From NCBI RefSeq assembly GCF_014859355.1, contig NZ_JACUUJ010000015.1, forward strand, positions 1-64,000: 64,000 nucleotides of DNA, given 5' to 3'. The notes beneath the pieces are model-generated. The model saw only the letters and a program-made list of their open reading frames with translations. It was not told where the DNA came from and ran no database searches. Below are positions 55,738-61,723 of the stretch, piece after piece. Source of the DNA: Yoonia sp. GTDB taxonomy: Bacteria; Pseudomonadota; Alphaproteobacteria; Rhodobacterales; Rhodobacteraceae. A program made the position numbers and the translations under genes. Position 1 is the first letter of the stretch. Each line of letters opens with the position of its first letter.

Positions 55738-56697
55738 TCAGACAGCGCCCAGTTTCTGCATCCGTGCCGCGCGCAGGCGGGCGAAATCGTCGCCTGCGTG
55801 ATAGGATGACCGTGTCAGCGGCGTGGCCGACACCATCAGGAACCCCTTGCCATAAGCGGCCTTTTCATAGGCGGCAAATTCGTCCGGTGTCACGAAACGA
55901 TCTACCTTGTGGTGCTTTGGCGTCGGTTGCAGATACTGCCCGATCGTCAGAAAGTCGATGTCGGCGGCGCGCATGTCTTCCATCACCTGCATCACCGCCT
56001 GCCGATCCTCGCCCAGACCAACCATAATGCCGGATTTGGTGAACATGCTCGGGTCCAGTTCCTTGACCCGCTGCAACAGCCGCAGGCTGTGGAAATAGCG
56101 CGCGCCTGGGCGCACCTCTGGGTAAAGGCCCGGCACGGTTTCAAGGTTGTGGTTGAACACATCCGGTTTTGCATCAACAACGATTCGCAGCACATCGGGA
56201 TCGCAGCGAATAAAATCAGGCGTCAGAATTTCAATGGTCGTGCCCGGCGACTGGCGGCGGATCGCGCGGATCGTCTGGGCGAAATGTTCGGCACCGCCGT
56301 CTTCTACATCGTCGCGGTCCACGGATGTGATGACCACGTGTTTCAGCCCCAGTTTTTTCACCGCATCGGCCACGCGCCCTGGTTCGAACACATCCAGTGC
56401 CTCGGGCGGTTTCCCGGTGGCGATGTTGCAAAAGGTGCAGGCGCGGGTGCAAACCTCGCCCATGATCATCATCGTGGCGTGGCCTTGCGACCAGCATTCG
56501 CCCACATTGGGGCACCCTGCCTCTTCGCAGACAGTGACAAGCTTGTGTTCGCGCATGATATCGCGCGTCGCCTTATAGCCGTCCGACGTAGGGGCCTTGA
56601 CACGGATCCAATCGGGTTTTTGGGGCTGCGCACTGTCAGGCCGCCGCTGTTTTTCAGGGTGGCGCTGGGCAGGGATTTTCAGATCGCGTGGGGACAT
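55738..56697 (-). CDS. lipA: lipoyl synthase
   Basis: A radical SAM enzyme that inserts two sulfurs into octanoyl chains to make lipoyl cofactors. The 319 residues have the auxiliary-cluster cysteines in [13 protein letters not shown], the radical-SAM CxxxCxxC in [13 protein letters not shown], and the closing RSSYHAGDD motif that supplies the serine ligand. GGAG lies before the ATG at 56697. The gene converges on the diheme cytochrome gene with a 4-bp gap. The GafA-like gene is upstream on the same strand, its stop 106 bp before the lipA start. Confidence 0.97.
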
Positions 56698-56803
56698 CAC
56701 AGGCTCCGTTTCGACTGTTCCAAGACTTAGCCCGCTTATCCGGCTTTGTCCAATACCACAGCGGGCCACATGGCGGCCCTGCAGTGGGTGCATGATCCTG
56801 CAC

Positions 56804-57925
56804 CTAGCCGATCAGCGGGGCAAATTGGCCTTGGGTCTGCCGATAATGCAGCTCCAGCCGTTCCAAGGCGATCCGCAAGACAATCTTGCCTGACCGCGCC
56901 GACCAGCCCATCGTTTTTTCGGTCTGTTCCAGACCCTCCAGCAGGCAGCAGCAGCGAAAGACAACTTCGCCCAATCCGGGGCCAAGATCGCACAGTGCCG
57001 CGCGCAACCGCGCGCGGGCCGACATGGCACCAAGAAAGCCACCCGCAGAGTCAGGCGCGGGGGTATCCGCCATCAAGGCATCCCAGCTTTCAATCCTGCC
57101 CATGCCAACCTGTGCCAGTTCAAAATCTTCGCGCAGCCGTTCGCCCGCCGTAACCTGCGTGCGTGTGATGAACGGATCACCGTTGCGATCCTTTCTGCGG
57201 GCCAGTCCTGCAAGCGGGCTTTCGGTCGCATGATAACGTGGCTGCGCCCCGGCCAGGCCAGCGATGGCATCCATATCCCACCCGGTATCAGCGTCTTTGC
57301 GGGCGCGGCGTTCGCCAAATCCGCCGGCGCGGTTTTCGTCTTCTGCGATCAGCCGGCGCAATGCTGCACGTCCGGTATTCGTGATGAAATAGCGGGCAAT
57401 GCGCGCGTCGGGCTGTGGGCAGCTGATCCAGTCCTTCAGCGCCATGGCCTGCGCAATTTCACGGCCCACGACAGCGGTGCGTAAATGGTCTCCGCTTTCG
57501 GTTTCGCGCACGACGACGGCAGATTCCAAGTCGCGGGCCACGGCCAGCACGGCGAGCGGTTCGCACAACCGATGCAGGATGCGCTTGGCTTCCTGATCCA
57601 CACGGTCATGGGTCAATTCCACAGAGGTTGGTCGAACGCTGTTCAGATGGGCAATATTCATCGCTTCGGTTTTCCTATTTTTAACAATATCATGTGCAGA
57701 AACACAGCCGGACAGAGACGTCAGCGCCGCATCGATCAGCGGATCGTCACGACGACATTCGAAACGACGGACCTGCCGCAAAACAGTTGACGGATGGCAA
57801 TCACTGGCCCGCGCCAATGCCCGGATCGAAAGGCCCATTTCTGTATGAACAAGATAATGTCGTGCGGCCTCTGGCACCCACTGCGGCAAGCGCGTGGGGC
57901 CATCGGGGTTTGATTGCGGGGTCAT
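56804..57925 (-). CDS. gafA: GafA-type gene transfer agent activator (HTH plus DUF6456)
   Basis: The 373 residues have an N-terminal helix-turn-helix (about 30-55, [23 protein letters not shown]) and a C-terminal DUF6456 domain (about 235-362; [53 protein letters not shown]). This two-part layout is that of GafA of Rhodobacter capsulatus. GafA directly activates the gene transfer agent cluster; Caulobacter splits it into GafY and GafZ. A strong GGAGGA precedes the ATG at 57925. No GTA structural genes are in the window. The symbol rests on architecture, not on alignment. Confidence 0.82.
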
Positions 57926-58028
57926 GTCAGTTGTCCTCCTACTCAGAAGTCCCGACACGAACAGGAGGGTCAGCTCGCTTGGCCAACATATCAATTCATC
58001 AACCTGTGCATGTTTGGTTACTTATTGG

Positions 58029-58101
58029 TTAACGCTATGGTTTGCCCGTCAACTATTCTTTCAAAAGAATAAACAAGTCTGACCAATGCGTTCTTAACCA
58101 T
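58029..58101. promoter_or_regulatory. operator-like region between the gafA-like and DUF6477 genes
   Basis: A perfect palindrome TATTCTTT-CA-AAAGAATA sits at 58054-58071. It is flanked by CtrA-type half-sites TTAAC (58029-58033) and TTAACCAT (58094-58101). The segment is AT-rich compared with both genes. It is a good candidate for control of the divergent gafA-like gene, the DUF6477 gene, or both. Confidence 0.5.
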
Positions 58102-58173
58102 TGGCGTTCCCGCAACACCCGGCACAGCTGTGCCATTCTCTTGCCTGTAACGACGGCAATGGAGTCAGGATAA

Positions 58174-58470
58174 ATGCAGGATCTGCACACACGAATCGCA
58201 AGACTGAAACGCCCCGCACTTTTGGCAAGGGCAGCCAGATTTGGCGTCGATGATTACCGGCGGGAAGTGCATTTGCGCCGCCTTTTGCGGATGGACCCAC
58301 TGCCCCGGCCCGCCGATGCGCTGATGCGCCTCTTGGATATGGAACAAGAAGTTGACAATCATCGCAGGGCGAAGGACGGCACATATATGGCCGCCCATCA
58401 TGTTGATGTGTTGATCGCCATTACAGGCGAAGCGCGCCTGCTACAGGCGACCCGCCCGCGCCTTATGTAA
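58174..58470 (+). CDS. DUF6477-family small protein
   Basis: A 98-residue charged, probably helical protein. The run ARLKRPALLARAARFGVDDYRREVHLRRLL is typical of the Rhodobacterales-specific family I know as DUF6477; no catalytic motif is visible. It begins at the ATG at 58174 with GGAGTCAGGA upstream. It is divergent from the gafA-like gene and overlaps the convergent MttB-type gene by 8 bp. Conservation next to the GTA activator in related genomes would suggest a linked role; that is not verified. Confidence 0.78.
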   Translation: MQDLHTRIARLKRPALLARAARFGVDDYRREVHLRRLLRMDPLPRPADALMRLLDMEQEVDNHRRAKDGTYMAAHHVDVLIAITGEARLLQATRPRLM

Positions 58471-60013
58471 AGGCGTCGGGCATGCTGGCCTTTTTCTCGG
58501 CCACATAGGCGCGCAGGCGGCCTTCGATCTCGGGGTCAAGGGCGGGTTGCTGATAGGTATCAAGCATCCTTTGCACCCGGACCGCAGCCAACGCCTGCGT
58601 GTCACGCGCGCCTTCTTCGTCCCATGTTTCAAACGGTTTGTAATCAAACAGGTCAGACCGCCAGAACGCCGCCTTGAAATTGGCCTGCGTGTGCGCGCAC
58701 CCCAGATAATGCCCGCCCGGCCCGACCTCGGCGATGGCATCCATGGCTTGCGCGTTTTCGGAAATATCCACGCCGCGTGCAAAATGGTGCAAGGTGCCCA
58801 ACTGGTCAGCATCCATGACGAACTTTTCGAACGATGCAACCAGCCCGCCTTCTAGCCAACCGCAGGCGTGCAGCATGAAATTGACCCCCGACAATAGCCC
58901 CATTTGCAGGCTGTTGGATGTTTCATAAGCCGCCTGCGCATCGGGCAGTTTAGACCCGCAGAACGACCCCGCAGACCGGTATGGCAGCCCCAGACGACGC
59001 GCCAGTTGACCGGCACCATAGGTGATGTGCGCCGCCTCTGGCGTCCCGAACGTGGGCGCGCCCGAATTCATGTCGATCGACGCAACAAACGTGCCCATGA
59101 TCGCGGGCGAACCGGGGCGGATGATCTGGGAATAGGCGACACCGGCCAGCACCTCGGCCAGCACCTGCGTCAACGTGCCCGCCACGGACACAGGTGCCAT
59201 GGCCCCGCCCACGATAAAGGGGCTGATGATCGACGCCTGATTGTTTTTCGCGAACACCTCCAGCGCACCCATCATGACGCTATCAAAAGTCAGCGGCGAG
59301 TTGATGTTGATCAGCGAGGTCATGACCGTGTTTTCCTGCACAAAATCCTTGCCGAAAAGAATTTCGCACATGTCCACCGAATCCTGTGCGCGGCTGGGTT
59401 CTGTCACCGACCCCATAAATGGTTTGTCGGAATAGATCATATGGGCCAGCAGCATATCCAGATGCCGCTTGTTCACCGGCACATCGGTGGGTTCGCAGAC
59501 CGTGCCACCCGAATGATGCAGCCATTTCGACATATAGCCCAGTTTCACGAATTTTTCGAAATCGGCCATCGTGGCATAGCGCCGCCCGCCTTCCGCATCG
59601 CGCACAAATGGCGGGCCGTAAACCGGGGCCAGCACAAGGTTCTTACCGCCGATAACGACATTGCGTTCGGGGTTGCGGGCATGCTGGGTGAATTGCGACG
59701 GTGCCGTGCTGCACAGCTTGCGCGCCAGACCGCGCGGAATCCGTACGCGTTCGCCTTCAACCTCTGCCCCTGCCTGACGCCAGCGGTCCAGGGCTTCGGG
59801 GTTGTCGACAAAATTTACGCCGATTTCCGCCAGCACCGTTTCGGCATTCGCCTCGATCACATCAAGCGCTTCCTGTGTCAGTACCTCGTAATTGGGGATG
59901 TTGCGTTCGATATATTTCGCGGTGTCGACGCTGACAGCTGTGCGTTCGGCCCGGCGTGCGGCACCGCCACCACCACGTGCGCGACGGGCTGTTGTTGCTG
60001 GTGCTTGCGACAT
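58463..60013 (-). CDS. MttB-family (non-pyrrolysine) methyltransferase
   Basis: The 516 residues match the trimethylamine methyltransferase (MttB) superfamily. No internal TAG codon interrupts the frame, so it belongs to the non-pyrrolysine branch whose characterised members demethylate glycine betaine or related quaternary amines using a corrinoid protein. Recognisable segments are YEVLTQEALDVIEANAETVL, KLGYMSKWLHHSGGTVCEP and RSAGSFCGSKLPDAQAAYE. The N-terminus is Arg/Gly-rich (RRARGGGGAARRAERT). AGAGGA precedes the ATG at 60013. No corrinoid protein or corrinoid:folate methyltransferase gene is nearby. Confidence 0.88.
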   Translation of the reverse strand: MSQAPATTARRARGGGGAARRAERTAVSVDTAKYIERNIPNYEVLTQEALDVIEANAETVLAEIGVNFVDNPEALDRWRQAGAEVEGERVRIPRGLARKLCSTAPSQFTQHARNPERNVVIGGKNLVLAPVYGPPFVRDAEGGRRYATMADFEKFVKLGYMSKWLHHSGGTVCEPTDVPVNKRHLDMLLAHMIYSDKPFMGSVTEPSRAQDSVDMCEILFGKDFVQENTVMTSLININSPLTFDSVMMGALEVFAKNNQASIISPFIVGGAMAPVSVAGTLTQVLAEVLAGVAYSQIIRPGSPAIMGTFVASIDMNSGAPTFGTPEAAHITYGAGQLARRLGLPYRSAGSFCGSKLPDAQAAYETSNSLQMGLLSGVNFMLHACGWLEGGLVASFEKFVMDADQLGTLHHFARGVDISENAQAMDAIAEVGPGGHYLGCAHTQANFKAAFWRSDLFDYKPFETWDEEGARDTQALAAVRVQRMLDTYQQPALDPEIEGRLRAYVAEKKASMPDAFT

Positions 60014-60129
60014 GGCTGATCCTCTTGATGCATTAATTGGGCTAGTGATACCCGCAGCGGCCGCATCGCCCTGATGCTTTTGCGCCATATCCGACGCGAA
60101 AACGACATCGCGGCATGGCGCGCGGGGTC

Positions 60130-60163: not shown

Positions 60164-61723
60164 ATGACAGACACATCCCATGAACGCCTTCTTATTATCG
60201 ACTTCGGCAGCCAGGTCACCCAGCTGATCGCGCGGCGTTTGCGCGAACTGAACGTCTATTGCGAAATTCACCCATATCAGAAGGTGACCGATGCCTTTCT
60301 GCGCGGCTTTGCGCCCAAGGCAGTGATCCTGTCGGGCGGGCCTGACAGCGTGACACGCCCCGGATCGCCACGCGCACCACAGCTGGTGTTCGAACTGGGC
60401 GTGCCGGTGCTGGGGATATGTTACGGCCAGCAAACCATGATGACGCAACTGGGCGGCAAGGTAGAACGCGGGCACGGCACCGCCGAATTCGGCCGCGCCT
60501 ATGTCACACCGGTGGGCAAGCTGGCGCTGCTGGATGGCTGGTTTTTGACCGACCGCGAACAGGTCTGGATGAGCCACGGCGACCATGTCTCTGAAATTGC
60601 GCCCGGTTTTGCGGTTTACGGCACATCGCCCAATGCCCCTTTTGCCGTAACGGCAGATGTCGCGCGCAATTTCTACGCCGTGCAATTCCACCCCGAGGTG
60701 CACCACACCCCGAACGGGGCCAAGCTGTATGAAAACTTTGTCCGCATCGCGGGGTTCACCGGCGACTGGACCATGGGCGCCTACCGCGAAGAGGCGATCC
60801 GCCTGATCCGCGAACAGGTGGGCGACAAACAGGTGATCTGCGGTCTATCGGGCGGGGTTGATTCGTCGGTCGCGGCGGTGCTGATCCACGAAGCGATCGG
60901 TGATCAGCTGACCTGCGTTTTCGTCGATCACGGGTTGTTGCGGCAGGGCGAAGCCGAAGAGGTCGTGACCATGTTCCGCGACCATTACAACATGCCGCTG
61001 ATCCATGCGAACGAACAGGAATTGTTCCTGGGTAAGCTGGAAGGCGTCAGCGACCCTGAAACCAAACGCAAGATCATTGGCGGGCTGTTCATCGACGTGT
61101 TCCAGAAATACGCCAACGGCATCGAAGGCGCGGAATTCCTGGCACAAGGCACGCTTTATCCTGATGTCATCGAATCTGTGTCGTTTTCCGGCGGTCCGTC
61201 TGTAACCATCAAAAGCCACCACAACGTCGGCGGCCTGCCGGAAAAGATGGGGCTGAAACTGGTCGAACCCCTGCGCGAGCTGTTCAAGGACGAGGTGCGC
61301 GCGCTGGGGGCCGAACTGGGCCTGCCGCCGTCGTTCATCGGGCGCCACCCCTTCCCCGGACCGGGCCTTGCCATTCGCTGCCCCGGCGAGATTACCCGCG
61401 AAAAGCTGTCGATTTTGCGCAAGGCCGATGCGGTGTTCATCGACCAGATCCGCAAGCACGGGCTGTATGATGATATCTGGCAGGCCTTTGTCGCAATACT
61501 GCCGGTGCGCACCGTGGGCGTGATGGGCGACGGGCGCACCTATGATTTCGCCTGCGCGCTGCGCGCGGTGACATCCGTTGACGGGATGACAGCGGATTAT
61601 TACCCGTTCAGCCACGAATTTCTGGGCGAAACGGCAACGCGGATCATCAACGAGGTGCAGGGCATCAACCGCGTGACCTATGACATCACCTCCAAACCCC
61701 CCGGAACGATCGAGTGGGAATAA
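60164..61723 (+). CDS. guaA: GMP synthase (glutamine-hydrolysing)
   Basis: The 519 residues comprise a glutamine amidotransferase domain (about 8-195; [15 protein letters not shown] with the catalytic Cys, and [11 protein letters not shown] with the His-Glu). The ATP-pyrophosphatase domain contains the P-loop [15 protein letters not shown], and the dimerisation domain ends [15 protein letters not shown]. It converts XMP to GMP in the cytoplasm. The ATG at 60164 has no evident ribosome-binding site. The downstream sulfotransferase-like gene begins within its stop codon (TAATG). Confidence 0.98.

Follow-up and report, generated by a model that had tools for sequence, protein, structure and literature searches.

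A probable gafA-type control locus of a gene transfer agent, with a divergent DUF6477 gene, in a Yoonia genome

The gene pair at positions 56,804 to 58,470 of a 64,000-nucleotide stretch of Yoonia sp. DNA (hereafter the window) is very likely the locus from which gafA controls an RcGTA-like gene transfer agent (GTA), with the DUF6477 protein acting late. GTAs are virus-like particles through which some bacteria pass DNA to one another. The pair appears to consist of a switch (GafA) and a late helper of the rcc01866 type, and adds a further genome to those with this known control system. The protein domains, the neighbourhood of the pair, a CtrA-type site in its promoter and a complete particle cluster elsewhere in the same genome all bear on this reading, as do related genomes in which most of the particle cluster has been lost.

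The larger gene (56804..57925, minus strand) encodes a full-length GafA-type protein of 373 amino acids, and a check of the open reading frames gave the same coordinates and frames for both genes as the preliminary description. Its ATG at 57925 is preceded on the 5' side by AGGAGG and agrees with the starts of its relatives in an alignment. The C-terminal DUF6456 domain that had been read from the letters was recovered by a Pfam search at residues 230–363 (56837..57238, minus strand), with 179.4 bits against a cut-off of 26.3 (E 4.5e-53). The proposed N-terminal helix-turn-helix (HTH) is likewise supported, by an AlphaFold model based on an alignment of 58 sequences (pLDDT 79, pTM 0.51), in which confident helices at residues 19–30, 34–40 and 45–57 correspond to those of an HTH; the generic Pfam matches at residues 28–63 (57737..57844, minus strand) fall below cut-off (HTH_23, 23.2 bits against 24.6; HTH_38, 22.1 against 27). 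The modelled N-terminal region thus appears to be an HTH, and its DnaA-like class was put to Pfam, which gave no Bac_DnaA_C match in this protein. A central beta-sheet domain (residues 125–181; 57383..57553, minus strand) is modelled with strands at 125–130, 135–141, 147–154 and 176–181, and would be the counterpart of the beta region at about residues 129–181 of R. capsulatus GafA that was proposed to bind RNA polymerase omega (PMC9638019, excerpt). The C-terminal domain is helical in the model, and part of it resembles sigma region 4, a -35-binding domain (3vfz, Foldseek probability 0.99, rmsd 1.1 over 56 columns), at a poor E value of 1.1; Foldseek returned no match for this protein at E ≤ 0.001.

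The divergent gene (58174..58470, plus strand) encodes a protein of 98 amino acids that matches DUF6477 (PF20083) over residues 1–94 with 115 bits (cut-off 25, E 1.7e-33), and a gap of 248 bp separates the two genes, in line with the divergent 98-residue neighbour originally described. AlphaFold gave a five-helix model (pLDDT 83), for which Foldseek found no match at E ≤ 0.001. DUF6456 and DUF6477 each have a single match in the genome, and neither protein had a match in NCBIfam or in sequence searches of solved structures. The statement that DUF6477 is uncharacterised needs correction, since the family corresponds to rcc01866 of R. capsulatus, which has a published deletion phenotype (PMC9638019, PMC6473078; excerpts). 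Upon its deletion, particles form without maturing and the cells do not lyse, as in a cckA deletion (PMC9638019, excerpt, where the gene is termed enigmatic); elsewhere its function is given as unclear, with capsid maturation as a possibility (PMC8601537, excerpt). Dshi_1585 of D. shibae, next to gafA, is the rcc01866 homologue (PMC6473078, excerpt), and roseophage RDJL Phi 1 carries homologues of GafA and rcc01866 with a CtrA-like gene in between (PMC6363796, excerpt). We identify DUF6477 with the rcc01866 family because of its position beside gafA and because gp36 of RDJL Phi 1 scores as DUF6477. The term DUF6477 itself was not found in a full-text literature search.

We take the genes around the pair to be a lipA-like gene (55738..56793, minus strand), an MttB-type methyltransferase gene that is convergent with the DUF6477 gene (58463..60088, minus strand), and a guaA-like gene (60164..61723, plus strand). 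On the opposite strand, the MttB-type gene extends 8 bases into the end of the DUF6477 gene. Conservation of the DUF6456–DUF6477 arrangement across Rhodobacterales, suggested earlier as a check, was seen in both sets of loci that we used: the pair is divergent in 30/30 same-genus loci examined, with gaps of 218–253 bp, and in 80/80 named loci, taken as the best among 246 confirmed DUF6477 matches (the best-matching ones being Yoonia or relatives). Homologues of mttB, lipA and guaA flank gafA in 79, 77 and 77 of these 80, respectively. Both DUF6477 and DUF6456 are present in all 36 same-genus genomes, while among 24 more distant genomes DUF6477 has no match and DUF6456 six; DUF6477 is also absent from the 14 control genomes. 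The lipA–gafA–guaA order is in print (PMC6363796, excerpt), and the locus here has both the lipA and guaA synteny and the divergent rcc01866-type gene of Rhodobacterales-type GafA loci. With these flanks, its divergent neighbour and the CtrA site described below, the locus fits the published gafA locus.

The gafA promoter contains a CtrA-type site of the published form TTAAC-N6-GTAAC (TTAACCAATAAGTAAC; 58017..58032, minus strand), which occurs once in the window against 0.01 expected. It is separated from the gafA start codon by 91 bases, outside the usual 65–71 given in print (PMC6363796, excerpt), a value that is customary rather than defining. Within the genus, a loose form of the pattern is present at a similar position in 25 of 30 loci, 23 of which fit exactly; among the named loci (best 80 of 246), the strict pattern is found in 46/80 and the loose one in 66/80, compared with 0.03 and 1.6 in plain letter shuffles. 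Three further elements stand out by their conservation among loci. The palindrome ATTCTTTCAAAAGAAT (58055..58070) lies in a conserved intergenic block and is possibly an operator or part of a promoter. Upstream of the DUF6477 gene is the block GCGTTCTTAAC (58088..58098, plus strand), which includes a TTAAC half-site and whose AGAACGC is present in 33/80 named loci (best 80 of 246; shuffles 1.4), and the block GCAACACC (58112..58119, plus strand) is found in 46/80 of the same loci (shuffles 0.4).

The preliminary description noted that there were no GTA genes here and that the regulator would act in trans. The former holds for the surroundings of the gene as read, and the latter agrees with the position of the cluster whose control we predict, on a separate contig of the same genome (2.98 Mb in 99 contigs, completeness given as 99.74%). 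Contig C41 (14,020 bases) carries a complete RcGTA-like head-tail cluster, with its genes in order from terminase to GTA_TIM, all on the same strand and free of frame breaks, which rules out the absence of a GTA cluster from this genome; the suggested search for a capsid/portal cluster thus turned up capsid and portal together with protease and GTA_TIM, and both DUF6456 (179.4 bits) and the cluster, on which the original reading hinged, are present. Nine of the ten C41 proteins scanned have Pfam matches (GTA_TIM, baseplate hub, DUF2460, tail completion, head completion, connector, capsid, protease and portal), the tenth, of 220 amino acids, has none, and the terminase was recognised by PHROGs; g3.5, g9, g10, g10.1, g11, g14 and g15.1 were assigned by size and position alone. 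A second contig, C80, carries mltG and the promoter/first-gene region of the cluster, and has exactly 55 end bases in common with C41. The small first gene on C80 is presumably the small terminase. The break between the two contigs, with its exact 55-base overlap, falls where the terminase gene begins, and C41 stops shortly after g15.1. GafA binding elements have not been mapped at nucleotide resolution, according to the excerpted part of PMC11150451. In 19 of 25 aligned Yoonia stretches, the interval ahead of the first cluster gene retains GTAACGGAAG, and in most of these a matching CTTACAGG comes after it (counted by eye). Together the two make an imperfect inverted repeat, perhaps a regulator site or an RNA hairpin.

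DUF6477 is also found in roseophages. In RDJL Phi 1, gp38 is a DUF6456 protein (42.4 bits), gp37 has a Trans_reg_C DNA-binding domain, and gp36 matches DUF6477 with 30.5 bits (cut-off 25) and the bacterial DUF6477 family with E 4e-8 in a profile comparison. RDJL Phi 2 has the same three, namely DUF6456, a CtrA-type DNA-binding domain and DUF6477, and RDJL6 has an annotated ctrA together with DUF6477. The DUF6477 gene directly follows the ctrA-type gene in all three phages, overlapping its end by 7 bases in RDJL Phi 1, 4 in Phi 2 and 1 in RDJL6. It also overlaps the start of the next gene, an exonuclease, by 1 base, and the gafA-like gene is farther away from it than ctrA is. These phage copies were reached through gafA matches and then with query P0002; the DUF6477 family alignment had no match among viral contigs, the DUF6477 protein of the window had none among phages, and scans of viral contigs with two RDJL Phi 1 proteins returned RDJL Phi 1 itself as the sole match. 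A phage CtrA query had no match within the window. RcRios and vB_DshS-R4C, which have weak gafA-type matches, show no ctrA or DUF6477 neighbour in their annotation. MW462191.1, labelled Bacteriophage sp., contains a DnaA-like HTH gene, a DUF6456 gene and sufE in the published chromosomal order of Hyphomicrobiales, and is probably a bacterial fragment.

From the gene order in these phages and the cckA-like phenotype of the rcc01866 deletion, we tentatively propose that DUF6477 might work with CtrA, as a small helical partner in the late stage. The overlap with ctrA speaks weakly for such a partnership, since small genes are tightly packed in this part of the phages and DUF6477 also overlaps the exonuclease gene. 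The phage block offers a concrete, testable idea for the enigmatic rcc01866, as a partner of CtrA in late gene expression. Instead of CtrA, DUF6477 could have GafA as its partner or act alone, which we regard as possible though somewhat unlikely. The divergent pairing with gafA in 80/80 named loci (best 80 of 246) is what this would lead one to expect, and the exonuclease overlap in all three phages means that an overlap with ctrA need not indicate partnership. However, the gafA-like gene is the more distant one in the same phages, gafA is open in G226, G386 and G196, where DUF6477 is weak or has a stop, and the rcc01866 mutant has a late phenotype like that of the cckA deletion (PMC9638019, excerpt).

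Taken together, we hypothesize the following sequence of events. CtrA would bind at 58017–58032 and, together with GafA itself, switch gafA on, as in R. capsulatus. The end domains of GafA would then bind the GTA promoter while its centre recruits RNA polymerase, turning on the cluster elsewhere in the chromosome, so that GafA would control the C41 cluster in this organism. The divergent DUF6477 protein would act later, in particle maturation and lysis, as rcc01866 does; that it does so as a small helical partner of CtrA is the weakest step. We infer all regulatory steps in this organism, and what we observe are the domains, the model, the synteny, the CtrA-type site, the cluster and the ctrA–DUF6477 neighbourhood in phages.

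The fate of the two genes after loss of the particle cluster bears on this proposal. A full-length GTA_TIM domain is present in 27 of 36 same-genus genomes; one more, G020, has it where a contig ends, and also has capsid and portal. Most of the cluster is deleted in place in G003, G028, G035, G026 and G021 (where the contig ends before cysE), and it is lacking where contigs end in G006, G010 and G023. Of these genomes, G003, G028, G035, G006, G010 and G023 have an open gafA frame, whereas that of G021 and G026 is broken, and the promoter region is retained in front of the remnant in G003, G028 and G035. Across the family, 263 of 296 genomes have GTA_TIM, 17 of the 263 with a weak best match (E 1e-34 to 2e-56), and when these 17 and 7 known cases were searched again, 18 of the 24 matches started at domain position 203–206. 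Among the genomes with the shared deletion described below, gafA is open in 16 of 19 examined and broken in G021, G104 and G156 (G368 is outside the 19), so that it may have a second role. Of the 17 weak-GTA_TIM genomes, 16 have DUF6477, with a weak match in G226 and G386 and a stop in G196; the exception is G368, in which it was not found. Broken gafA/DUF6477 pairs also occur in G081 and G093. Further, gafA is split despite a full GTA_TIM in G017 and G089, the split in G017 being a likely sequencing error because mltG is split as well, and the DUF6477 gene of G034 has a stop. These sequences suggest that the pair tends to decay after GTA loss, slowly or incompletely, so that it could have a second role or control the fused gene described below.

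The losses themselves follow a recurrent form. In 20 genomes, terminase codons up to 193–195 are joined to g15 at about codon 641–655; by genome labels, these genomes (G003, G021, G028, G090, G104, G108, G144, G156, G169, G186, G196, G220, G222, G223, G226, G282, G301, G304, G368 and G386) span at least 15 genera. The joint typically reads ...QFDAAW.DE/.GC... (slash at the joint), with a frame shift there in G003, and mltG lies upstream in 17/20 loci and cysE downstream in 18/20. The fused frame is open, at 826–887 amino acids, in 14/20, cut by a contig end in G222, and broken or shortened in G003, G021, G104, G156 and G368. G035 and G093 have a different truncated form, in which g15 starts at codon 564; in G035 the g15 remnant is in frame with the first cluster gene in an 818-amino-acid ORF, and in G093 the upstream side runs to a contig end. 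No description of the shared deletion was found in a full-text search, nor by word search in PMC6821227 and PMC7947584, a search that was not exhaustive.

In a tree of 75 C-terminal g15 parts (a quick LG+G4 search with SH-aLRT only), the 24 truncated rows, of which five (G035, G093, G100, G235 and G361) do not have the same joint proven, are scattered, requiring 16 changes, at least 8 of them forced by starred branches. The closest sequence to a fused allele is itself fused in 6/19 cases near the joint and in 8, 10 and 11 of 19 in windows farther away. Given this scatter, and since fused alleles do not come together in the windows near the joint, the sequences fit repeated independent deletion better than one transferred allele, and a single transferred deletion allele is unsupported. 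Sequence repeats as the cause of the joint are also unsupported, because, in 2 of 4 intact genomes where both sites could be placed, thousands of g2/g15 window pairs match better; DNA similarity at the joint is unremarkable in the two genomes in which it could be ranked.

Codon models gave an omega of 0.056–0.064 for the fused gene between G304 and G108, sisters with full tree support and the one supported sister pair among the fused pairs. Values were 0.035–0.051 for G186/G220, which share an unresolved fork with intact G212, and 0.069–0.127 for G028/G003, with two further pairs saturated; five intact pairs gave 0.042–0.117. Across 14 three-way tests, omega was raised on no fused branch, 12 tests had no significant difference, and omega was lower on the G304 and G108 branches, which are very long and poorly estimated. 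These models show no relaxed selection after the collapse, with synonymous change saturated in several pairs, as would be expected if the fused protein is functional, or equally if the loss is recent. In the draft assemblies of G020 (contigs C68 and C65), G100 (C54) and G235 (C14), each contig begins precisely with the GAA codon of the joint, except for the g2-bearing contig of G020. This contig, which covers g2 and what follows, starts 55 bases ahead of the point at which intact and deleted arrangements would part. Such ends in G020 are expected from an assembler with 55-base words if both arrangements were in the sample, which hints at the coexistence of intact and deleted alleles in one sample, the deleted arrangement itself being unseen in G020.

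These observations allow a bolder version of our proposal, which we offer as an improbable one, in which gafA–DUF6477 is the retained control half of an on/off GTA system. In such a system, one and the same deletion, joining terminase codons 1–194 to g15 from about codon 641, would swap the 14-kb cluster for a single gene in many Rhodobacterales genera. It would repeatedly arise or segregate within populations beside the intact allele, GafA would continue to drive the fused gene, and purifying selection would keep that gene as a functional protein. If true, producers and non-producers would form a standing polymorphism for gene transfer. The recurrent collapse is more surprising than the gene pair itself, and provides a natural experiment on the retention or removal of GTAs and the coexistence of alleles.

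Alternatively, the main role of gafA–DUF6477 might be something other than the GTA, for example a stationary-phase programme linked to CtrA, with GTA control as one of its outputs. We consider this doubtful. Its case is that the pair outlives the cluster, with both frames open in G003, G028 and G035 despite the in-place deletion, that DUF6477 persists in 9 of 19 tested genomes (of 33 without a GTA_TIM match), and that gafA of G003, G028, G035 and G006 is under no relaxed selection in codon models (omega 0.03–0.15). However, DUF6477 is absent from the other 10 of those 19, gafA or DUF6477 frames break along with a lost or partial cluster in G021, G026, G081, G093, G104, G156 and G250, the losses may be recent, and the evolution of gafA is tied to the GTA cluster in print (PMC9765227, excerpt). 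That the larger gene is an ordinary HTH regulator with no tie to GTAs seems very improbable: its HTH matches are indeed generic and sub-cut-off, but the strong DUF6456 match, the matching synteny and the presence of a GTA cluster contradict such a reading. Control of a GTA by the gafA-type gene, with a late role for its neighbour, remains our preferred explanation.

Among known systems, the closest counterpart is GafA of R. capsulatus (rcc01865), which is likewise a single protein with an N-terminal HTH, a central beta region and a C-terminal DUF6456 domain, encoded at a locus with the same promoter CtrA site, lipA and guaA flanks and a divergent neighbour. The CtrA spacing differs, being 91 bases here, and the likeness is one of published description. 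The position and orientation of rcc01866 and Dshi_1585 beside gafA are the same as those of the DUF6477 gene here, and RDJL Phi 1 gp36, in the place described for the rcc01866 homologue, scores as DUF6477 with 30.5 bits; the comparison with rcc01866 is thus by position and phage gene. GafY/GafZ of Caulobacter (in which, as a control, DUF6456 was also found) and the two-gene gafA of Hyphomicrobiales have the same two functional halves by published similarity, in two genes there and in one here. The block in roseophages RDJL Phi 1 and Phi 2 brings together a DUF6456 gene, a CtrA-type DNA-binding domain and DUF6477. In contrast to the divergent pair here, however, all block genes of these two phages lie on the same strand with ctrA between, and the phage DUF6477 proteins are 72–73 amino acids long, without a central stretch, compared with 98 in Yoonia.
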